Source: Candidatus Nitrosocosmicus franklandus
Lineage (GTDB): Archaea; Thermoproteota; Nitrososphaeria; Nitrososphaerales; Nitrososphaeraceae
Assembly (NCBI RefSeq): GCF_900696045.1
Contig: NZ_LR216287.1
Coordinates: forward strand, 1,178,001-1,242,000
Direction of reading: 5' to 3'
DNA length: 64,000 bases
A model generated the notes under the pieces. It searched no databases and was not told the DNA's origin. It saw only the letters and a program-made list of their open reading frames with translations. A program made the position numbers and the translations under genes. Of this stretch, positions 31,808 to 50,249 are shown piece by piece (the stretch's first letter is position 1; each line of letters starts with the position of its first letter).

Positions 31808-31997
31808 ATACCAATACTAAAAGTTGTGATTTTATAAAGAGGTTGCTAATTCATATATTATTTATGCACCTTGACCGCGTTCACATTTGAACTATTTTAT
31901 ATGGATAACCTGCATTGGTTGCTGACCGGATGTCATATTTTTTGTGTTTAGTCATATCACATCTTCTATAAGTATACAGTTTGAGATAGTTTAAATA

Positions 31998-32025
31998 TTA
32001 GGCTAGCTTAATTAGGCATGACTAA
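31998..32025 (+). promoter_or_regulatory. Two tandem degenerate DtxR-type boxes at a leaderless promoter
   Basis: TTAGGCTAGCTTAA (31998-32011) and TTAGGCATGACTAA (32012-32025) each match TTAGG-N4-CCTAA except for one base. A TATA-like TTTAAATA ends just before the first box, and the second box runs into the ATG of the following gene. The layout equals that at 40353-40383. Confidence 0.55.
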
Positions 32026-32231
32026 TGACTGGAAGTCAAGCATCCTTATCTTTACCATTAATTAAGGTTCTCAAAAAGGACCAAGAGGAAGAACAGGAAG
32101 AGAAGAGCATCATAACATTTATTTGCGAAAATACAGACGGAATTTTGGATCCGTTGGATCAAATGACTTTTGCACTAAACGAAACTGCAGTAAGATATGG
32201 CCCCGTAGTAGTATTAAAGGATGCACCATGA
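32025..32231 (+). CDS. Small hypothetical protein, 68 residues, putatively metal-regulated
   Basis: ATG directly at the end of the tandem boxes, so translation is probably leaderless. The protein has an acidic stretch KKDQEEEQEEK followed by IITFICENTDGIL and NETAVRYGPVVVLKDAP. No family is recognised. The next small gene follows after 21 bp and probably shares the transcript. Confidence 0.55.
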   Translation: MTGSQASLSLPLIKVLKKDQEEEQEEKSIITFICENTDGILDPLDQMTFALNETAVRYGPVVVLKDAP

Positions 32232-32252: not shown

Positions 32253-32531
32253 TTGGTAACATCTACTTCTAATACAGCAGCTGGCAGCAATCCCTCTTCA
32301 GGTAAACACATTATTCCGGAAGATAAAACTGATGAGGTAAAGGCACTAATTGCTAGATATGTGTTGTTGAAAATAGAGCAAAAAAAAATTGAAGCCAAAT
32401 TAGCTGAAATAGCTAAATATTATGATGACGAGTCCTTAAGGACAATATTCGAACCCATAGGTGAATCAATGATGGGAGTAATTGGATTAGAATCATCTCA
32501 CAATAGGAAAAACAAGGGTTCTACTGTTTAG
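32253..32531 (+). CDS. Small helical protein, 92 residues
   Basis: TTG start. After a Ser/Asn-rich beginning comes a helical segment KALIARYVLLKIEQKKIEAK and LAEIAKYYDDESLRTIFEPI, which looks like a short coiled coil. No cysteines, no signal. Second gene of the putative metal-regulated pair. Function unknown. Confidence 0.55.
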   Translation: MVTSTSNTAAGSNPSSGKHIIPEDKTDEVKALIARYVLLKIEQKKIEAKLAEIAKYYDDESLRTIFEPIGESMMGVIGLESSHNRKNKGSTV

Positions 32532-36402: not shown

Positions 36403-38514
36403 CTACTTTTTTATTATTAACAAAACGTCTGAATCGATTTTGTTCAATTGTTCTGATATAGCTTGAATTACCTGTTCATTAGCATTAAGGCTAGAAAAAT
36501 CCAACAATTGAAATCCATCCAGTAGGTAAACTGCAGGACTTACATCAGATCTCGAGAACCTTGAAATGATTGAGGAAAGATCGGTATTTAATATGGTCGA
36601 TGGATTATGTATCAATTCACCATTTTCTAGTGAGAGGCGCACTCTGCCATATTTGTCTAATACAAGTATCGATTGCTTATTTGTATTAAAAAATAGCTTT
36701 TTGTGTTTATATGAATTACCAAAAATGTAATAATTCCCCAAATTATATTTGAGCGAAACATTACCACGAAATTGAAATAAGCTTCTTGCAATTTCAAACA
36801 ATTCCTCTTGTTTCAATTCTTTAGAACCATTATTATTTAAATCGAGTGTTACATTACCTATTGCAGTAACTCTTAATATAGATCGATCACTTATATATTC
36901 TGATTGGACTGATAGCGAATCAGGGGAGGCATTCTTTCGAATTGCTTCTTCTTTAACTTCGGCTATTAATTGAGCGAAATCTTGAGGGGTTGGATTGTTA
37001 ATTGTTCTTTCTTTTTCTTCATAAATCATCCCCGTTGCAACTCCAATTGAAGATATAACATCTGCATATTCCGCCTTCTTATATTCGAAATCAAGTCTTT
37101 TTGCAACCATCGGAACCAACACAGATGCACCTCCGCCTCCTCCTATAACTACTGTTCTGTTTTTAGATAACTTATATTCCTTAATCATGGGGATAACGTA
37201 ATCTACAATTTTAGAGACAGAGATATCTATTACTTGATTTGCTATCTTCTCAGGAGTCATTCCCATAAAGGTGGCTAATTTAGTAAATGCAATTCTCGCT
37301 GCATCGGTATTTCCATAAGCATTATCGTTCTTGGGAATAAGATTGAGTGCATTTGCTGCACATGTATTAGTTATTCCATATTTCTTTCCACCCGGAATTT
37401 GTATACAAACATAATCGTTTGGATCGTTATTTAATGGACTAATGGTAACAACTTCGCCCTTTTTTAAATCCTCAGGATTTGCAAAGCAGGAGTATTCTAA
37501 TCCTGCAATGTGTGATGATCTGGGACCAACGTCAATAATTTTCTTTTTCGGAGAAACTCTTATTAGTGATCCGCCAGCAACTCCACAAATTCTAGAGTCA
37601 AGGGACCTTATGCAAGTTGGGTGTTCCATAATGTTTACATATCGCATTTCTGGTTTCCCATCCTTAATTATACTAATATTAGTTGACGTGCCACCAACTT
37701 CAATAAATATTCCTTCTAATACCTGCAAAAATAGCAAAGCACCTACGACACTTGCAGCTGGACCTGACAATACCGTTACTATTGGTTTATGTAAAAAAGA
37801 ATCCAGAGTAGTTACTCCACCATCACCTTTCATTATCATTAGCGGTGCATTAATGCCAAGCTTGCTAACCGCGGACTTTACAAACGTTGCTGTGCTTGTA
37901 GCTTTTGGAAGAATACTGGCATTAATAGTTGCAGTCAAAGTTCTAATTTCCAAACCATAAATTCCAGTTAATTCGTGGCCTGCTGTGCATGGAAGTTTCG
38001 AATGTTTCATAACAAATAATTCATTACTAGGATCATCAACTCCAAAAGCTTCGCTTACGACTATCGATTGAGCCCCCTCAGATACCAAATTTTCTATAGA
38101 TTTGATAATACCAGGTTCTTCTAAATATTTAGAAGTGTCCAAAAAAGTATAACAGGTTTTTAGGGATTTATTAGAATTCAAAGATATATCTTTTATGTGA
38201 GTTCGTTTTACTACATTTGTTTTTTCCATCCCCACCCCCATTCCAATAATACCAACTTTAGAAACATCTCCTTCAAGAAATGCATTAACAGCTTGTGTTG
38301 TACTATGAGAAATCAACTCTATCTCTTCGTGGTTTATATTGCAATCCTCAATTAGTGCAGATAGTGCGTTTACAATACCAACAGAAACACCGCCTTCAGA
38401 CGAATGCGTTGTCGGGACAGATTTTTTTCCAAGGATTTTCTTTTCAACGACATCTATAGCGACGGCTTTAGTAAAAGTCCCCCCTACGTCTATACCAATT
38501 CGAATTTTTTTCAT
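36403..38514 (-). CDS. Hydantoinase/oxoprolinase (HyuA-like) family protein
   Basis: 703 residues. The ASKHA-type ATP motif IGIDVGGTFTKAVAID opens the protein; SHSTTQAVNAFLEGDVSKVG, MKGDGGVTTLDSF and VLSGPAASVVGALLFL are typical of HyuA, and VVIGGGGGASVLVPMVAKRL closes the core. Relatives hydrolyse hydantoins or 5-oxoproline with ATP, or carboxylate acetone; they normally pair with a HyuB subunit, which is not seen here. Its neighbour instead is a racemase-fold protein, 84 bp upstream. The substrate is unknown. Confidence 0.85.
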   Translation of the reverse strand: MKKIRIGIDVGGTFTKAVAIDVVEKKILGKKSVPTTHSSEGGVSVGIVNALSALIEDCNINHEEIELISHSTTQAVNAFLEGDVSKVGIIGMGVGMEKTNVVKRTHIKDISLNSNKSLKTCYTFLDTSKYLEEPGIIKSIENLVSEGAQSIVVSEAFGVDDPSNELFVMKHSKLPCTAGHELTGIYGLEIRTLTATINASILPKATSTATFVKSAVSKLGINAPLMIMKGDGGVTTLDSFLHKPIVTVLSGPAASVVGALLFLQVLEGIFIEVGGTSTNISIIKDGKPEMRYVNIMEHPTCIRSLDSRICGVAGGSLIRVSPKKKIIDVGPRSSHIAGLEYSCFANPEDLKKGEVVTISPLNNDPNDYVCIQIPGGKKYGITNTCAANALNLIPKNDNAYGNTDAARIAFTKLATFMGMTPEKIANQVIDISVSKIVDYVIPMIKEYKLSKNRTVVIGGGGGASVLVPMVAKRLDFEYKKAEYADVISSIGVATGMIYEEKERTINNPTPQDFAQLIAEVKEEAIRKNASPDSLSVQSEYISDRSILRVTAIGNVTLDLNNNGSKELKQEELFEIARSLFQFRGNVSLKYNLGNYYIFGNSYKHKKLFFNTNKQSILVLDKYGRVRLSLENGELIHNPSTILNTDLSSIISRFSRSDVSPAVYLLDGFQLLDFSSLNANEQVIQAISEQLNKIDSDVLLIIKK

Positions 38515-39438: not shown

Positions 39439-39912
39439 TTATCTACTATTATTAGTGCAACAATTACCCTCAGGTATTCGATATCCATGAGGACATATCC
39501 TTGGATGTTTTAATAAGGTACAAAGAGCATCAGTAAAGATATCTTTCATGTGATGTTCTATTCCACAAACCATTTCTTCATCAATATCAATCTTGAGGGC
39601 GTCTTTCATAAGTACTTCTAATAAGCGTGTGTTACGTATCATTTGTTTTCCTATCTTTTCTCCTTCACTTGTAAGGGTCACTATTGATCCCTTCTTGTAA
39701 TCGATAAGGAGTGAATCATTTAATTTATGAAGCATTTGAACGACGGAAGGTTGAGTTACATTTAAGATCTTGGCTATAGAGCTAACCTTTAACTCTTGCC
39801 CACTCTCCAAAATAGACCACATTGCCTTTAGATACATTTCGACATGCTCGGCTTCCGCCGTACCTACATACAATTGTTCAGAGAGTCCAGTGTTTTTTGA
39901 ATATGCAGACAA
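39439..39912 (-). CDS. DtxR/MntR-family metal-dependent transcription regulator
   Basis: 157 residues. An N-terminal winged helix (VEMYLKAMWSIL, KVSSIAKILNVTQPSVVQML) is followed by the dimerisation and metal domain with CGIEHHMKDIFTDALCTLL and HPRICPHGYRIPEGNCC, which carries the usual metal ligands. No SH3-like third domain is present, as in MntR-type members. It should bind Fe or Mn and repress uptake genes at TTAGG-N4-CCTAA-type sites, which occur in this window. Its own upstream region shows no such site. Confidence 0.92.
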   Translation of the reverse strand: MSAYSKNTGLSEQLYVGTAEAEHVEMYLKAMWSILESGQELKVSSIAKILNVTQPSVVQMLHKLNDSLLIDYKKGSIVTLTSEGEKIGKQMIRNTRLLEVLMKDALKIDIDEEMVCGIEHHMKDIFTDALCTLLKHPRICPHGYRIPEGNCCTNNSR

Positions 39913-39986
39913 CGTATATAATTACAATGTATTAATTTTTAACTTTATTGATTATGTTGTGATTAAAAAGAAATTTTTCAGAAAAC

Positions 39987-40352
39987 TCATGTTACAATGA
40001 AGTGCGGCAGACTCTTCTCGTTTTTCTTCAAATTCAGGACAACTTGTTTTTTATTTAATACAAGCTCCATAGACTGAATCCTACTTTTGTAAAATACGAC
40101 CTTTTTTCCCTTTTCATTAATTACAATTCTATCGATAATCAAGAGCCCAAGATCTTTGAGCTTTCTTATTTTTTTGTAAGTGGAGCTGATGGGTAGATCA
40201 TTTTCCCTGCAAATTTCAAATACAGTTTTTGAATCCTCAATAATAGACATTACTATTTTGTAAGAAAATCCATCAAATAGCTCCTTTAATAGAAGTGATG
40301 CATTATTCTTATTTTCGTGTGTTGAAAAATACATTTGGTCAGTGAACATCAT
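39987..40352 (-). CDS. Winged-helix transcription regulator
   Basis: 121 residues. A helix-turn-helix with wing (KTVFEICRENDLPISSTYKK, LKDLGLLIIDRIVINEKGKK) fits the ArsR/TrmB-like group of archaea. No metal-binding cysteines are seen apart from one. Two DtxR-type boxes begin one base before its start codon, so this regulator itself is probably metal-controlled. Confidence 0.75.
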   Translation of the reverse strand: MMFTDQMYFSTHENKNNASLLLKELFDGFSYKIVMSIIEDSKTVFEICRENDLPISSTYKKIRKLKDLGLLIIDRIVINEKGKKVVFYKSRIQSMELVLNKKQVVLNLKKNEKSLPHFIVT

Positions 40353-40383
40353 TTAGGCTTACCTAATTGTTAGGGGTCCCTAA
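40353..40383 (-). promoter_or_regulatory. Two tandem DtxR-type operators
   Basis: TTAGGCTTACCTAA (40353-40366) and TTAGGGGTCCCTAA (40370-40383) are dyads matching TTAGG-N4-CCTAA. Read on the minus strand, a TATA-like TTTAAATA ends immediately before them and the ATG of the winged-helix gene follows directly. A bound regulator would cover the transcription start. Confidence 0.75.
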
Positions 40384-40956
40384 TATTTAAACGGTGTTAT
40401 ATTTTTCTTATATCCTATAGATTATGCATCAATAAACCATAAATCATAGACCAATTAGGGCCTAACTGAAAATACGAAAATCTTTCGGTTTATGTTAAAA
40501 TAATTATTAGTTTTATCATCATACAAGTTCCAAATATCCAAGAACGATAATGGCAATGGCAATGGCAATGGCAAATACGCTGAAATTCTAGTTTTCTAAT
40601 TTCCTCACTTGATCATCAGGCAAACCTACAGATACCAACGTGATAATAATAAGATTTATCTCTTACTTCATAAGCAATTCTAAATTCCAATAAATTTACT
40701 TTTTCAAAAGTTTATTCACCAATCTTTATCTCTCAATAGTTCCCGATGTAGGGACACAGTACATTGATATGAGTATATCTTACGAACAAATACGAAAAAT
40801 AGAAATCGAATTAATCAAAGTCGAGATACTTATGGTTCCTAACAAAAAGAACAAAATGAGTAATTCAATAAAGGTTAGTTATCAAAAAAATATAATATTC
40901 ACGAAAAGCACAAATAATGCTAAATACAACGATTGAAAAACACCTCTTGAAAATAG
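40384..40956. other. Long intergenic gap between divergent genes
   Basis: Holds a further related palindrome TTAGGGCCTAA (40455-40465, half-sites one base apart), a GGCAAT microsatellite of four units near 40552-40574, and a possible 55-residue ORF (listed separately). No RNA gene is apparent. Confidence 0.5.
40769..40936 (+). CDS. Possible small ORF, 55 residues
   Basis: ATG-started frame encoding a Lys/Asn/Ile-rich peptide (MSISYEQIRKIEIELIKVEI ...). It ends 20 bp before the cyclase gene. The composition is close to what AT-rich noncoding DNA gives, so it may not be real. Confidence 0.25.
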   Translation: MSISYEQIRKIEIELIKVEILMVPNKKNKMSNSIKVSYQKNIIFTKSTNNAKYND

Positions 40957-41595
40957 TTGAAAATAGTTGATTTAACACAGGAAATTGATGAAGACACTCA
41001 AGTATTTCCGGGTTCACCGAGAGTCAGTTTATTGCAATGGTCTAACCATCGATCTCATAAGTATGCCTCTGAGGTGATTTTTAGTAGTACTCATATTGGA
41101 ACGCATATCGATGCTCCCTATCATTTTAAAAGCGGTGGCTGCACTGTAGAAAATATCCCTCTTGACAAACTAATAATTCAAGATAAAATAAGAGTTCTCA
41201 GAATAGAAAAGAAAGATGATGAAAAAATAGAAATTGATGATCTCGTCAATCAACAAATTGAGGAAAAAGATTCCATATTAATTAACACTGATTGGTCAAA
41301 ATATAAAAATACAGACAAATATTTCGATAAGAGTCCTGGTCTATCGAAAGCAGCGGCTGAATATCTGGTAAAAATCAAAATAAATCTTATAGGAATAGAT
41401 AGTCCAAATATCGATCCAGGCTCAGACGAAGAATTTAATTCTCACAAAATTTTTAGCGAAAGCAATATTCCTATTTTGGAGAATTTAATGAATCTAGACA
41501 AATTATTAAATAAGAAATTCACTCTAATAGCACTTCCCCTGAAACTCAAAAACTGTTCTGGATCACCTATTAGAGCAGTAGCCCTAGTAGAGTAA
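40957..41595 (+). CDS. Cyclase/kynurenine formamidase-family metal hydrolase
   Basis: 212 residues from a TTG start. The family signature is present: VDLTQEIDEDTQVFPGSPR and STHIGTHIDAPYHF with the metal-binding His/Asp residues, then IGIDSPNIDPG and PLKLKNCSGSPIRAVALV. Members hydrolyse formamides such as N-formylkynurenine or close and open rings with Zn or Mn. No tryptophan catabolic gene is nearby, so the substrate is open. Confidence 0.88.
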   Translation: MKIVDLTQEIDEDTQVFPGSPRVSLLQWSNHRSHKYASEVIFSSTHIGTHIDAPYHFKSGGCTVENIPLDKLIIQDKIRVLRIEKKDDEKIEIDDLVNQQIEEKDSILINTDWSKYKNTDKYFDKSPGLSKAAAEYLVKIKINLIGIDSPNIDPGSDEEFNSHKIFSESNIPILENLMNLDKLLNKKFTLIALPLKLKNCSGSPIRAVALVE

Positions 41596-41681
41596 TACTT
41601 GCATACGTCTAAACATTCAAAAAACACATCGCATAGTGCAAAGAGAAAATAACAGTTTACAAGATAAAAAAAGTCCACGAC

Positions 41682-42800
41682 TCAATTTTCTTTCTTATTC
41701 TTTGACTTTGTATTGCTAATTAATCCTACTAATCTATAACCATATTCAAAGTTATGTTTTACATGGTTAATACCATGTGTTAAATGGGGTTCAAATTTGC
41801 CATCCAATATATTTTCAATATAAAACTGCACCTTCTTAATTGAAATTTGTGAATGCCTAACTTGTTTATCAGACAAGGAACGTCCTAGTTCAGCTTCAAT
41901 CTCTTGCTTGAAATCCTTTAATTCAATTAATTTGCCGTACTTCTGAATCTTGTTGTAGTTGTTGCATATGTCATATAGTTTTTGTATTTCCTTTCCAGGT
42001 AACATGGACAATGAATTTCTAACTTGAGCAGGATCTCTATTAACAATTTGTGCTATCTTGTAAACTATTTCTTCTATCATAAGCATTTTGGCATCATCTT
42101 CACTAGCGGTAGAGAAATGACGGCTATCATCTTCTCTTGCAACAGTATCGTGTGATTTTTGCTTTGACGAATTTACGACGTTATCTGAGTTTTCGGTTAG
42201 TGACTCTACAGATTTCTTTCCTAGCTTGTTCGCCAACGAAGCAAGATCTCTGTTTGCATAAGAGTATTTACTGGAAACCAGTGAAGATTTTTTAGATTCA
42301 TAGTAAGTTTTTATCTGAAATAGTGAAATTCTTTTACCTTCTAAATTAGTCTTTAAGAATATAATAGACAAAACATCTACAAGCAGATTCGGGAACTGAA
42401 CTTTTACACTATCAGGAAAATTATCATAGTCATGTAGAATATCATTACAAATTTCAAAAACAACATTATCATAAGTGGATAATGTAAAGGGAATTGAATT
42501 TGAATTAACCTGTTTCTTAATTAAATGATTTGCAAGGAACTTGTATGACATTATAAAGAAATCATATACATCGCTTTTTTTTAGGACAAACTTTTGAGTT
42601 TGGATCATGATTGTTATTGTTTTTAATAAAATAAGGTGCTGATCTACAACCTTAACGTCAGGAAACAAATTTTTAAAGTCATTCATCATCATAACAAGAT
42701 AATCATCATTTTCTGTAATGTCCTCGACCCAATTAATCCCTAGTTGTTTAAAGTCCTTTTTAAATAATACATTGAAATCAGTGTTTGAATTGCCAGTCAT
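41682..42800 (-). CDS. Hypothetical protein, 372 residues
   Basis: Mostly helical, charged protein without signal peptide or membrane helices. A Ser/Asn/Asp-rich linker (about residues 195-240) divides an N-terminal helical domain from a C-terminal domain with IVYKIAQIVNRDPAQVRNSL and LGRSLSDKQVRHSQISIKK. No known family. Convergent with the cyclase gene. Confidence 0.65.
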   Translation of the reverse strand: MTGNSNTDFNVLFKKDFKQLGINWVEDITENDDYLVMMMNDFKNLFPDVKVVDQHLILLKTITIMIQTQKFVLKKSDVYDFFIMSYKFLANHLIKKQVNSNSIPFTLSTYDNVVFEICNDILHDYDNFPDSVKVQFPNLLVDVLSIIFLKTNLEGKRISLFQIKTYYESKKSSLVSSKYSYANRDLASLANKLGKKSVESLTENSDNVVNSSKQKSHDTVAREDDSRHFSTASEDDAKMLMIEEIVYKIAQIVNRDPAQVRNSLSMLPGKEIQKLYDICNNYNKIQKYGKLIELKDFKQEIEAELGRSLSDKQVRHSQISIKKVQFYIENILDGKFEPHLTHGINHVKHNFEYGYRLVGLISNTKSKNKKEN

Positions 42801-42898
42801 TGTTGGACACTCTATAAAGGTATTTTTTTGTTATTAAACATTAGAAAATAATTTAATTGTAAAATATTCTAACAAAAAATTACATAATAAATTCGATA

Positions 42899-43570
42899 TT
42901 ATTTTTTATTTTTATTATTGTCATGATCGGATTCTGTATCGGAGTTGTCGAGAGCCCAAGGAAACCATTTTCCAATTATTTTGGCCCAGTCAAATTTAAA
43001 AGCAAAAAATAGAACCAAAACTAGCAAGATTACCGACAACACTGCAATCAATATTGCAGAATATTGATCATTAGAATCAGTCATGGTCAAAAAGCCCTCC
43101 ATTATTGGTCTACCCAGATAAACTGTACCCCAAACAATTATTGCACCCATTAAGAACTTGCCTATAAACGTAAAAAACGCAAATCTGGATGGACTATATT
43201 TTGCTATCCCAAGAGGAATATAGACCAAATCATCAGGTATAGGAGTCAAAGCAGCAACAAAAACCCCTATCCCACCATATTTACTCAGCAGTTTCTGAAG
43301 AGGAAGCATCCTAGTTTTTGTCTTTTTACTCAGAATGTTGCGCCCATAATAGCTAGCAATAAATATTATTGTCTTAGCCATAACTGCACCGATTGCGCTT
43401 AACAAGATTATTAGATTCGGATCAAGACTCTTGTCCAGGCCAGAAGTAACTAAAACGGGGAAATATGGTACTGGAATAAATGGAATAATACTACCAATAA
43501 AGCTGATTAAGAATATACCTATATAGCCTGAACCACTATAAAAAGAATATAGGTCTTGTATATCAATCAA
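42899..43570 (-). CDS. DedA/VTT-family membrane protein
   Basis: 223 residues. The VTT-domain patterns FIGSIIPFIPVPYFPVLV, GAVMAKTIIFIASYYGRN and FVAALTPIPDDLVYIPLGIA, KFLMGAIIVWG are present, with several membrane helices. DedA proteins are linked to lipid flipping and membrane integrity. The C-terminus is a charged Asp/Asn/Lys tail. About 75 bp separate it from the FTR1-type gene upstream on the same strand. Confidence 0.85.
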   Translation of the reverse strand: MIDIQDLYSFYSGSGYIGIFLISFIGSIIPFIPVPYFPVLVTSGLDKSLDPNLIILLSAIGAVMAKTIIFIASYYGRNILSKKTKTRMLPLQKLLSKYGGIGVFVAALTPIPDDLVYIPLGIAKYSPSRFAFFTFIGKFLMGAIIVWGTVYLGRPIMEGFLTMTDSNDQYSAILIAVLSVILLVLVLFFAFKFDWAKIIGKWFPWALDNSDTESDHDNNKNKK

Positions 43571-43644
43571 TCAAGCAAATATTGAATTAACAAATATAAC
43601 TACTTTCTTAATTTTAGCAAGTTTTTCATAAAATTAAGAAATTA

Positions 43645-46461
43645 TTAGACGTCTTCAAGATCTCTATCTAGGTTTTTTCTCGCATTGTCAGTTATTGCGG
43701 TGCTTGTCTCCCTCTTTTCCTTTTCCATTTCTTTTTTTGCCACAGATTTTCTCATGGAAGCTATTTTTTGTTGTCGTCTAGGTTGAATGAATAGAATATA
43801 CAGCGACCCTACAACATAGATAGAAAGTAGAATCAACTGTCCAATAACAGTCTCTAGTGTTGGATGGATACCAGTCATCGTTGCTACATTAATATCAAAT
43901 CTAGGGATTATGCCCAAAAGATGTGTTGTTGGAATCCATCCAAGCTCTTGAAATTCACGGAGTGCATTGCCTAAGAACGTGATCGACATAAATGCTCCAA
44001 CTCCCATGGTTAGTCCAAATAATACCCTCAGGGGTAGTTTCTTTCCTAGCTTGCGAATGATAAATACAACAGCAATGATAATGGCCAACCCTATTACCAT
44101 CCCCGCCAGTACGTAGAGTTCCATATATTTTGCGAATGAGAACAACGCTTGATAGAATAGAACAGTTTCAAATCCTTCCCTATATACAGTGAAGAATGCT
44201 AGTAGAACAAATACCATAAAGCTACCAGTAGCAGTAGCCTGCCAGACTTTTGCCTTCACAAATTCAATCCATTTTTTAGTCTCGATCTTGTTTAGTACCC
44301 AGAAACTTACCCAGAACAGCACAGCCACAGCAGAAATTCCAGCAATAGCTTCAATGAGCTCCCTTTGAGCACCAGAAATATCAATTATGAATTCTGCTAC
44401 CATCCACGTAATGGCAGTAAGACCTATGGCAAGAATAATTCCAATATACACGTGTTTTTTGAACTTTTCATTTCTGGAGGCTTCCAAGTACGTAAGTATA
44501 GCACCAATGATCAAAGCCGATTCCAGACCTTCTCTAAAAATAATTGAAAATGAAGAAGAAAATGCTATAGCAGGAGCAACAACACCTATACCCTGAACAA
44601 ACCGTTCAGATTCATCAAGTCCGTTCTTTAGCTCATACACCTTAGAAACAATCTCATCTGGAGGAGCGTTAGCGGTTATAAGATTACGCAATTCTGCAAA
44701 TTTTATTTCCATTTCAAGTGTAAAATCAGGATCGATAGGTCTCAGAGGAATCTCTATATTTTCATAACTATCAAGATAAGCAGATCGGGCAGTAGCCAAA
44801 GCCTCAGATGATTCGTTTTGATTGACTAGACTTATGACTTGATCTAATTTTACCCTTATAGTATCTATATCGTTACGAACCTGTACTTTGAAGTCCTCTG
44901 TGGCGTTTCCCATATCTCGTCTTTCACCAGTATAAACTCCAAATCCCTCCTTCAGTGAGTCAATATTAGCAGTATTTGCCACAAAAGCCGAGGGAAGCGC
45001 TTGATTTCCCGGATTTGCTGACGAGGCACTGTTACTAATACTTAACAGCTGTCTGGAAACTTCCAGATCTGCTTTTATATCAGAGATATAGGCCTCTATG
45101 ACAGGTAACGAAGTTTTATTTTGGATCATGTCGCGCAGGTTCTCCCTCATGTTTGTTTCAATTTGTAGCATAAGAGTAGAATTCACTTTTTCTATTGGAG
45201 CTTCTAGATATTCAAAATTATCCAGATATGCAGAAGATACATTCTTGTCTGCAGCAACGTAATCACCATTTTGGAGTGAAGAAAGTGCATTATTTAGTAA
45301 TGTGTCTATGTTATCATAATAAGCTTGCAAAGATGAATCAATTCCACCACCACCACCAGAGGAAGTTGTACTTAACAGCTGTCTGGAAACTTCCAGATCT
45401 GCTTTTATATCAGAGATATAGGCCTCTATAACAGGTAACGAAGTTTTATTTTGGATCATGTCGCGCAGGTTCTCCCTCATGTTTGTTTCAATTTGTAGCA
45501 TAAGAGTAGAATTCACTTTTTCTATTGGAGCTTCTAGATATTCAAAATTATCCAGATATGCAGAAGATACATTCTTGTCTGCAGCAACGTAATCACCATT
45601 TTGGAGTGAAGAAAGTGCATTATTTAGTAATGTGTCTATGTTATCATAATAAGCTTGCAAAGATGAATCAAGGCTCTTGGAAGTATCTTGGATACGAATA
45701 TTGTTTGACTCATTTAGATCATTTTCTATTGCCGTAACCAATCTCAAAAATTCTGAAACATCTCCACTCTTAGATGCAACCAAATTATTAATACTGGAAA
45801 TGAAATAGTCTACTTCGTCAGATTTTGCACTTGTCATATTTGGTTTCAAAATTTCAAATATCGTCTTGGATTGATTTAACAATCCTAATGTATTCTCATA
45901 ATCAATCATCGCAAAATTTGCAGACTCTGGATCAAGTAAGTTGGAAGAATTGAGGTAAATACTGTATGAATTGTAAGCGTCTCTAAGCAGGTAGGACATG
46001 GTTTGGGATTCAAGGATGGAAAAATCTTGAGCCGGTAATGAGCCCTTTAATTTGGAGTAAAAGTCGTTAACCAAGTTTAAAGAGTCCACAATTTCAGATT
46101 GCAGAATCGATGACTCAGGAGCAGATCTAGAATTTATACCAATATCAGTCAAGTTAGCCTCTAAACTCTTGGCCAAATTATCGTCTAAAGATATTGCAAG
46201 TGGTTTTATTGAGGGATAGATAACAGAATGTGGGATATAGGCATGTTCAAACAAGAAAGAATTATTATTGTTATTTATTTTATCCAAAAGAATATTTAAT
46301 TGAGTTTCAATTCTGTTTAAATTTAGATTCAATAATAACAGATCTTCGTTAGAAATAGGGGGCGATGTTTCACTGGATGTGGAGGATTGTGCCAATACAT
46401 TACTAAGAGATATATTTAGAACGAGCACAAAAGTAATGAAAAATGCAAGAATCTTTACCAT
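43645..46461 (-). CDS. FTR1/EfeU-type iron permease with a long repeat ectodomain
   Basis: 938 residues. A signal peptide (MVKILAFFITFVLVLNISLS ...) leads into about 600 extracellular residues, mainly helical, containing two near-identical 101-residue units and a third diverged one (about 530-620), then the seven-helix permease with both REGxE iron motifs, REGLE (about 645) and REGFE (about 760). FTR1 proteins import ferric iron. The ectodomain may pass metal or an oxidase product to the channel, like the periplasmic part of EfeO/EfeU systems. A DtxR-type box lies 77 bp before the start. Confidence 0.9.
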   Translation of the reverse strand: MVKILAFFITFVLVLNISLSNVLAQSSTSSETSPPISNEDLLLLNLNLNRIETQLNILLDKINNNNNSFLFEHAYIPHSVIYPSIKPLAISLDDNLAKSLEANLTDIGINSRSAPESSILQSEIVDSLNLVNDFYSKLKGSLPAQDFSILESQTMSYLLRDAYNSYSIYLNSSNLLDPESANFAMIDYENTLGLLNQSKTIFEILKPNMTSAKSDEVDYFISSINNLVASKSGDVSEFLRLVTAIENDLNESNNIRIQDTSKSLDSSLQAYYDNIDTLLNNALSSLQNGDYVAADKNVSSAYLDNFEYLEAPIEKVNSTLMLQIETNMRENLRDMIQNKTSLPVIEAYISDIKADLEVSRQLLSTTSSGGGGGIDSSLQAYYDNIDTLLNNALSSLQNGDYVAADKNVSSAYLDNFEYLEAPIEKVNSTLMLQIETNMRENLRDMIQNKTSLPVIEAYISDIKADLEVSRQLLSISNSASSANPGNQALPSAFVANTANIDSLKEGFGVYTGERRDMGNATEDFKVQVRNDIDTIRVKLDQVISLVNQNESSEALATARSAYLDSYENIEIPLRPIDPDFTLEMEIKFAELRNLITANAPPDEIVSKVYELKNGLDESERFVQGIGVVAPAIAFSSSFSIIFREGLESALIIGAILTYLEASRNEKFKKHVYIGIILAIGLTAITWMVAEFIIDISGAQRELIEAIAGISAVAVLFWVSFWVLNKIETKKWIEFVKAKVWQATATGSFMVFVLLAFFTVYREGFETVLFYQALFSFAKYMELYVLAGMVIGLAIIIAVVFIIRKLGKKLPLRVLFGLTMGVGAFMSITFLGNALREFQELGWIPTTHLLGIIPRFDINVATMTGIHPTLETVIGQLILLSIYVVGSLYILFIQPRRQQKIASMRKSVAKKEMEKEKRETSTAITDNARKNLDRDLEDV
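45039..45671. repeat. Recent 303-bp in-frame tandem duplication in the permease gene
   Basis: Copies 45039-45341 and 45369-45671 differ only at 45100/45430. The period is 330 bp (110 codons), so the frame is kept. The spacer encodes a Ser/Gly-rich linker with five glycines. Confidence 0.95.
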
Positions 46462-46537
46462 TTCCTATTGTCCCTCGCATTAAATTCTAAGATGGTTTCA
46501 ACCGAAACTTTAAAACAATAGTTAAGCGGAAATAACA

Positions 46538-46551
46538 TTAGGCTTCCCTAA
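46538..46551 (-). promoter_or_regulatory. DtxR-type operator of the iron permease
   Basis: TTAGGCTTCCCTAA matches TTAGG-N4-CCTAA. On the minus strand a TATA-like GATATAAAG runs directly into it, so the box covers the expected transcription start of the FTR1-type gene. Confidence 0.7.
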
Positions 46552-46729
46552 CTTTATATCCAATATAATTTAAACATTATCAAGTGAATCTGTTAACTAT
46601 GACAGATCTTTAATAAAACTTTTATAATAAACAGATAAAATTTTGAATAAAATTACTATGATATATAGGAAATATACTACAAACTAAAAAATTTATCCAT
46701 AATAGATTATAAAAAATAGAAATATTTAA

Positions 46730-49214: not shown

Positions 49215-50249
49215 GTGAAAGCTCTTTTTTATTCGAAACCAGGTATAGAAAACCTTGTATTTTCAGATTATCAATTAGCCGATTTAAGAGAAGACGAGAT
49301 CTTAATTGAAACAAAATGCATGAGTGTTAATCCAATAGATTATTACACTGTTACTGGAATACATGGATTAGACGGTCCTAAAATGAAGATATCCCCTTAT
49401 CCACATATACCAGGTACAGAGGTCGCAGGGATAGTAAAGAAAAAGGGTTCTAAAGTAAAAACCAAACTTATCGAAGGTGACCGTGTAATAGTATACAATA
49501 GATTATTTGATGGAACATGCAAATACTGTAGAAACAATATGGAAATGCACTGTATTAATGGCGGAATGATAGGAGTAATAACAAATGGAGGATATGCAGA
49601 ATATATCAAAGTCCCTCATCACAATGTAATTCAAATTCCTGACGAGATAAGTTGGGACATTGCGTCTGCGTTACCAATTGGCGGACTTACTGCACTCAAT
49701 GCTATAGAAGAATCACGATTGAAAAGAGGCGATTTTCTATTGATATTTGGCGGTGCTGGCAATACAGGCCTTTTTTGTTCACAAATTGGCAAGATAAAGG
49801 GTGCTCAAACAATATCCATTTCTTCTAAGCAATGGGTTAAAGAATACGGAGCTGATCTTGTATTGGAAAATAATGCATCCTTAAAAGAAAACATTTCTCG
49901 TGTTACCAATGGGAGAATGATTGACCTAGTTATAAATTCTCTTGGAGAAAAAACTTGGAGTCAAGGAATGAATTTGGTAGGAAAGTTGGGTACGATTATT
50001 ACATATGGAGTACTGACTGGTGGTAACTTATTAACAGATGGTAGATTGCTTTATAATAATCAGATCACAATAAAAGGCACTACTGGCGGATCAGTTAAAG
50101 GATTAAACAGGCTGATAGAAATAGTAAAGGAAAATAACATTAAGACTAAAATTTGGAAACGCTATTCTTTGGAAGACTCGAAAAAAGCTATTGAAAAAGT
50201 CTTTGATAAGAACAGAGAGGGCCGTATTATAATAGAAAATGGTGGATAA
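49215..50249 (+). CDS. Zinc-type alcohol dehydrogenase-like (MDR) oxidoreductase
   Basis: 344 residues from a GTG start. MDR motifs: CMSVNPIDYYTVTG, HIPGTEVAGIVKKKG, a structural zinc region GTCKYCRNNMEMHC and the NAD(P) loop IFGGAGNTGLFCSQIGK. The catalytic Cys/His ligands of classic alcohol dehydrogenase are replaced (Ser-Val-Asn-Pro), so it may be quinone-oxidoreductase- or crotonyl-CoA-reductase-like. Substrate unknown. Confidence 0.85.
   Translation: MKALFYSKPGIENLVFSDYQLADLREDEILIETKCMSVNPIDYYTVTGIHGLDGPKMKISPYPHIPGTEVAGIVKKKGSKVKTKLIEGDRVIVYNRLFDGTCKYCRNNMEMHCINGGMIGVITNGGYAEYIKVPHHNVIQIPDEISWDIASALPIGGLTALNAIEESRLKRGDFLLIFGGAGNTGLFCSQIGKIKGAQTISISSKQWVKEYGADLVLENNASLKENISRVTNGRMIDLVINSLGEKTWSQGMNLVGKLGTIITYGVLTGGNLLTDGRLLYNNQITIKGTTGGSVKGLNRLIEIVKENNIKTKIWKRYSLEDSKKAIEKVFDKNREGRIIIENGG

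Follow-up and report, generated by a model that had tools for sequence, protein, structure and literature searches.

Introduction

In archaea, DtxR-family regulators such as Idr1 and Idr2 of Halobacterium and TroR of Haloferax control metal homeostasis, and regulons of this family (FetR/MntR) were reportedly predicted by Leyn and Rodionov in 2015. The DtxR-type repressor MDR1 of Archaeoglobus fulgidus, from another lineage and with other targets, acts at several operators that follow the TATA box and blocks polymerase recruitment. For the ammonia-oxidizing archaeal lineage, no iron regulator was named in the literature that we searched. Here we describe a 64-kb stretch of the Candidatus Nitrosocosmicus franklandus genome (the window; the genome is a single contig of 2.84 Mb), in which a gene for a DtxR-family metalloregulator (39439-39912) is found together with promoters carrying TTAGG-N4-CCTAA dyads. 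This is a DtxR-type metal switch with operators kept across dozens of genomes of soil ammonia-oxidizing archaea. The switch very probably represents a Candidatus Nitrosocosmicus iron regulon whose DtxR/IdeR-type repressor is most likely the 39439-39912 product, with repression by Fe(II)-loaded dimers and induction in iron shortage.

Among described systems we compared the locus with IdeR/DtxR of the Actinobacteria, where the 19-bp box TTAGGTTAGSCTAACCTAA is bound by dimers interleaved by 5 bp. IdeR, which uses Gln43 and Pro39, can also occupy a lone CCTAA dyad that has a 4-bp spacer, a "half site" (PMC10317159), and on the half sites of Saccharopolyspora erythraea one dimer sits on two CCTAA repeats with that spacer (PMC10317159). 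The present system shares with the actinobacterial one the TTAGG/CCTAA half-sites and their 4-bp spacer, the Pro/Gln recognition residues, the primary-site iron ligands, iron-uptake targets and operators placed across the start region. It departs from the classic IdeR system chiefly in how the dyads are arranged, adjacent here instead of interleaved: of 60 distinct operators with more than one dyad, 45 have dyad starts spaced by 14 bp and 10 by 17 bp. None of the loci searched contained an interleaved 19-bp IdeR box, even with 3 mismatches allowed. Unlike the S. erythraea half sites, a single or adjacent dyad is the rule here rather than an exception. The archaeal regulator also differs in having no SH3 domain and a Thr at the His79 equivalent, and its promoters are of the archaeal TATA type. 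As in the archaeal DtxR-family regulons (FetR/MntR, Idr1/Idr2, TroR), metal homeostasis appears to be controlled via palindromic operators; in the literature searched, we found no description of winged-helix, small-protein, TFB-like or non-coding RNA targets of archaeal DtxR regulons.

Results

Operator dyads in the window

A pattern search of the window returned three exact dyads (Table 1), against 0.13 expected by chance, and none of 100 shuffles contained three or more. At two mismatches there is no enrichment (17 dyads versus 32 expected, i.e. rarer than chance), so that only near-exact copies are informative and degenerate copies require independent support. All the dyads claimed by the original prediction, before genes for a winged-helix protein, an FTR1-type permease and a small protein, are present where it placed them. 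The pair before the small-protein gene, which it called degenerate, is real, as borne out by orthologous promoters and not by its own statistics. The prediction also had each TATA box directly touching its dyad, which holds for the winged-helix and small-protein promoters. At FTR1, however, the dyad-touching GATATAAAG is not conserved; the TATA box that is conserved precedes the dyad by 16 bp, so that the dyad spans the expected start site. A dyad at 49368 falls within a gene for an alcohol dehydrogenase and was rejected as an operator.

Table 1 Genes and promoter elements of the predicted regulon in the window.
Feature	Position	Strand	Basis
TATA box TTTAAATA, small-protein promoter	31990..31997	+	sequence; conserved
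Tandem operator, two one-mismatch dyads (31998-32011, 32012-32025), 14 bp apart	31998..32025	.	orthologous tandem in other genomes
Small protein, 68 aa (amino acids), motif ICENTDGILDPLDQ...VVLKDAP	32025..32231	+	in 13 of 61 genomes including the source
Second small open reading frame, 92 aa, possibly same operon as the 68-aa protein	32253..32531	+	open reading frame list
Likely repressor: DtxR-family metalloregulator of 157 aa without SH3/FeoA domain	39439..39912	-	PF02742/PF01325; orthologues; residues
Candidate second-tier regulator: 121-aa winged-helix protein with an ArsR/Phr-like fold	39987..40352	-	AlphaFold model; orthologues
Operator dyad, ATG-proximal, TTAGGCTTACCTAA	40353..40366	.	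exact match; arms invariant in 14 genomes
Operator dyad, TATA-proximal, TTAGGGGTCCCTAA	40370..40383	.	exact match; arms invariant in 14 genomes
TATA box TTTAAATA abutting winged-helix operator	40384..40391	-	sequence; conserved
FTR1-type iron permease (FTR1/EfeU), 938 aa, long N-terminal ectodomain	43645..46461	-	PF03239, TIGR00145/EfeU
FTR1 operator dyad, TTAGGCTTCCCTAA	46538..46551	.	exact match; kept in orthologous promoters
Conserved FTR1 TATA box TTTAAAT, 16 bp upstream of dyad	46568..46574	-	FTR1 promoter alignment

The operators are conserved in position and sequence

The promoter of the winged-helix gene has the same layout in all 14 Nitrosocosmicus genomes that carry the gene, with TTTAAATA, a dyad, 3 bp and a second dyad, followed within a few bases by the start codon. 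Across these genomes all 20 arm columns of the operator are invariant, as opposed to 3 of 11 spacer columns (Fisher p 2e-5, phylogeny ignored), and most other genera that have the gene show two dyads 14 bp apart in its promoter. The FTR1 promoter dyad is kept in at least seven Nitrosocosmicus genomes including the source (among them G003, G006, G007, G008, G009 and G013), and in other genera. The small-protein promoter carries its tandem dyad with 14-bp spacing at the same place in the orthologues of G002, G003, G006, G022, G025, G029 and G035; in G022, G029 and G035 these dyads are perfect or close to it. Matches to TATA box plus tandem lie closely upstream of the gene in G005, G012 and G013. 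In the 61 genomes searched, the core tandem-dyad pattern gave 56 matches, compared with 1 for a reversed-pattern control. In addition, the spacers of 14-bp-spaced operators are mirror-like more often than shuffled ones (p 0.0025, related sequences included).

Outside the window, the complete genome adds three exact dyads to give a total of six. Four of the six (two before the winged-helix gene, one before FTR1 and one before a candidate non-coding RNA) occupy conserved promoter-type positions. One lies between the divergent SufB and SerA genes (G000:C1:1978448-1978461) and is conserved in G003 and G006; the remaining one is within a gene. The intragenic dyad at 605704 was rejected as an operator. 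A one-mismatch dyad, TTAAGTATACCTAA, is located 23 bp before the start of a Rieske [2Fe-2S] gene (G000:C1:830642-830655) and may be there by chance.

Target genes point to iron uptake and further regulators

The identity of the permease was as predicted (PF03239, 4.8e-17; TIGR00145, 1.9e-34), and the protein has the FTR1 domain with two REGxE motifs (REGLE and REGFE), as expected of an FTR1/EfeU permease. The same gene contains a perfect 300-nucleotide direct repeat with a period of 330 at 45039-45668, a recent in-frame duplication within the ectodomain. FTR1 is also the commonest transporter target; operator-led genes in relatives further include those for FTR1-type permeases, a ZIP transporter (G016) and a similar gene (G017). 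A tandem operator lies near a gene for a PhnD-like protein, a phosphonate-binding-like ATP-binding cassette (ABC) protein, in G038, and a FeoA-domain DtxR gene in G039 has three dyads at its own promoter. A single dyad precedes a hydantoinase gene in G025, and another is close to a VIT1 transporter in G038. The window has a hydantoinase-like gene of its own (36403-38514) with no dyad, unlike the G025 copy with its exact dyad at the start.

For the winged-helix protein we obtained no confident Pfam family and no obvious metal site is evident. Its AlphaFold model (predicted local distance difference test 77.6) has an ArsR-type likeness, and the best PDB match is Phr of Pyrococcus furiosus (2p4w, E 1.2e-4), a Pyrococcus heat-shock regulator. 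In other families, genes for TFB-like proteins (TFIIB repeats) stand directly behind tandem operators in G037 and G053 (L136, L137) and possibly in G038 (L150, whose product has no Pfam match); these proteins are possible metal-controlled general transcription factors. Given the ArsR/Phr-like fold and the TFB-like genes under the same operator elsewhere, it is plausible that the winged-helix protein acts as a second-tier regulator. Neither the 68-aa small protein nor the 92-aa open reading frame matched a Pfam or NCBIfam family. A short intergenic AATGGC hexamer microsatellite is found at 40549-40573.

The linked DtxR-family protein is the likely repressor

The 39439-39912 product belongs to the DtxR family as originally predicted, having an N-terminal winged helix and a metal-binding/dimerisation domain (PF02742, 4.8e-20; PF01325, 9e-13; both above the cut-off), and its PDB matches by HMMER are SloR, ScaR, MntR, DtxR and IdeR. 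Orthologues occur in nearly all genomes of the family and in several other families. In all aligned Nitrososphaeraceae orthologues the primary metal site (equivalents of Met10, Cys102, Glu105 and His106) reads M, C115, E118 and H119, and the equivalents of the DNA contacts P39 and Q43, the P and Q of QPSVVQ, are kept in most aligned orthologues. DtxR and Bacillus subtilis MntR served as references for this alignment, and HMMER alignments agree in the MntR segments shown (variant chain). IdeR/DtxR-type primary ligands together with a CCTAA-reading Pro/Gln pair make Fe(II) the best reading of the co-repressor.

The gene is, moreover, linked to the operators. It lies 0.45 kb from one in the source genome, its orthologue is just downstream of operator-led FTR1 in G039 and G055, and in G051 it is downstream of two dyads. 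Outside the family, the tandem operator was found in 7 of 11 genomes with an orthologue versus 1 of 13 without (p 0.008, in a test that ignores ancestry and reads the orthologue split from E-values). The predicted repression by the metal-loaded regulator is thus supported by the target genes, the IdeR-type residues, linkage and co-occurrence, and the position of the operators between TATA box and start. On the whole, the originally predicted regulon is genuine, and for the most part the prediction interpreted it correctly.

Several observations weigh against this reading. The genome-wide search that the prediction had called for shows exact dyads in conserved promoter positions, yet their raw number does not exceed that of the reversed-pattern control (6 versus 11), and one-mismatch dyads resemble background, with 39 of 63 intragenic; the proof therefore lies in position and conservation, not in number. 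In the regulator, the ancillary-site equivalent of His79 is Thr and that of His98 is not His, the Glu83 equivalent being kept. Furthermore, the source genome encodes two other DtxR paralogues, and G054, from another family, has a tandem operator without a close orthologue of the 39439-39912 gene. A ScaR/SloR-like second metal site using the CPH motif is possible. The orthologues also conserve a C-terminal motif, CPHG-xx-IP-xG-x-CC, whose CC is absent from DtxR and B. subtilis MntR and which may form an extra metal or cysteine site.

We then weighed other explanations of the data. The regulon could sense manganese or another divalent metal in the manner of MntR, in line with slightly better sequence scores to MntR, SloR and ScaR than to DtxR, with the ZIP genes among the targets in relatives, and with the f4 family (G039, G055), which has Glu in place of the primary-site Met. 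However, the manganese ligands of MntR, Asp8 and Glu99, are not present in the 39439-39912 protein, which has Met and Cys there as in the DtxR/IdeR set, and the commonest transporter target is FTR1. The ligand set as read from the alignment thus favours iron over manganese, and we consider a manganese regulon rather unlikely.

We regard it as quite improbable that the operators are bound by one of the two paralogues (G000:C1:556053 or 694233). Their presence in the genome, the G054 operators and the three dyads at the promoter of the FeoA-type gene in G039 would fit such a repressor, but linkage and co-occurrence point to the 39439-type orthologue, whose recognition residues match those of IdeR. 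There is little to recommend the winged-helix protein as a dyad-binding autorepressor with the DtxR gene as a mere neighbour: although it is at the winged-helix gene itself that tandem operators are best conserved, genomes lacking a close orthologue of this gene have tandem operators before other metal genes (ZIP-like in G004, G016, G017 and G021; also G037, G039 and G055), which makes this protein an unlikely binder, and the dyad is the textbook DtxR/IdeR half site (PMC10317159). Finally, the palindromes could form hairpins at the transcript 5' end, but activator sites or RNA hairpins in place of repressor operators are scarcely credible, since the dyads start at the TATA edge and for the most part precede or span the predicted start, a position suited to occlusion, and since their arms are fixed while spacer bases vary.

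Operator-led candidate non-coding RNAs

Outside the window, one exact dyad, together with a TATA box, stands at the head of a conserved element of roughly 200-230 nucleotides (G000:C1:134663-134930; L165, about 2190-2440), which nine Nitrosocosmicus genomes share. Indels break its reading frames, and a conserved protein was therefore rejected. Folding z-scores range from -0.9 to -3.9 against mononucleotide shuffles. Non-coding stretches headed by tandem operators also occur in Nitrososphaera and another genus; they have in common GTCTGG-x-TTGGCATCT and a strong 3' hairpin (L142, L145-L148, L263-L267 and L269-L273), a pattern for which a control search gave zero in 70 genomes. Covariation is slight, with 2 and 1 compensated pairs for the putative RNAs, and Rfam gave no convincing match for the window and two of the non-coding loci; the Nitrosocosmicus element is without an Rfam match. 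Some of the GTCTGG-motif stretches contain CACCTCC, resembling the 16S rRNA 3' end. Neither its complement nor a Shine-Dalgarno plus AUG pattern pointed to a consistent mRNA target of the small-RNA motif. We regard these operator-led elements as candidates that are possibly iron-regulated small RNAs.

Discussion

From these results we propose the following mechanism. Under iron sufficiency, dimers of the DtxR-family regulator carrying Fe(II) would bind the TTAGG-N4-CCTAA dyads, two dimers sitting between TATA box and start site at a tandem operator and one covering the start site at the single FTR1 dyad. By analogy with IdeR, and in likeness to MDR1, the bound dimers would prevent recruitment of RNA polymerase. 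When iron becomes scarce, the dimers would lose their metal and be released, and the FTR1 permease, the winged-helix protein, the small-protein operon and the non-coding transcript elsewhere in the genome would be induced. The winged-helix protein would then act as a second tier, a place that TFB-like proteins seem to fill in other families. That the DtxR-type iron repressor controls small RNAs besides iron uptake and, together with second-tier winged-helix or TFB-like proteins, forms an iron-sparing layer like that of RyhB is an idea we hold tentatively, at somewhat less than even confidence.

A DtxR-type archaeal metal regulon is of a known kind. What would attract a specialist here is the geometry of the operators, the small protein as a marker, the putative second tier of regulators and, most of all, the candidate operator-led non-coding transcripts. 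Ammonia-oxidizing archaea carry out much of soil nitrification, and our analysis offers for them a candidate regulator, an operator rule (one or two TTAGG-N4-CCTAA dyads after a TATA box) and a list of genes. The small protein would serve as a marker of iron limitation, and the operator-led non-coding transcripts, if true, would be a first step to an archaeal iron-sparing RNA.

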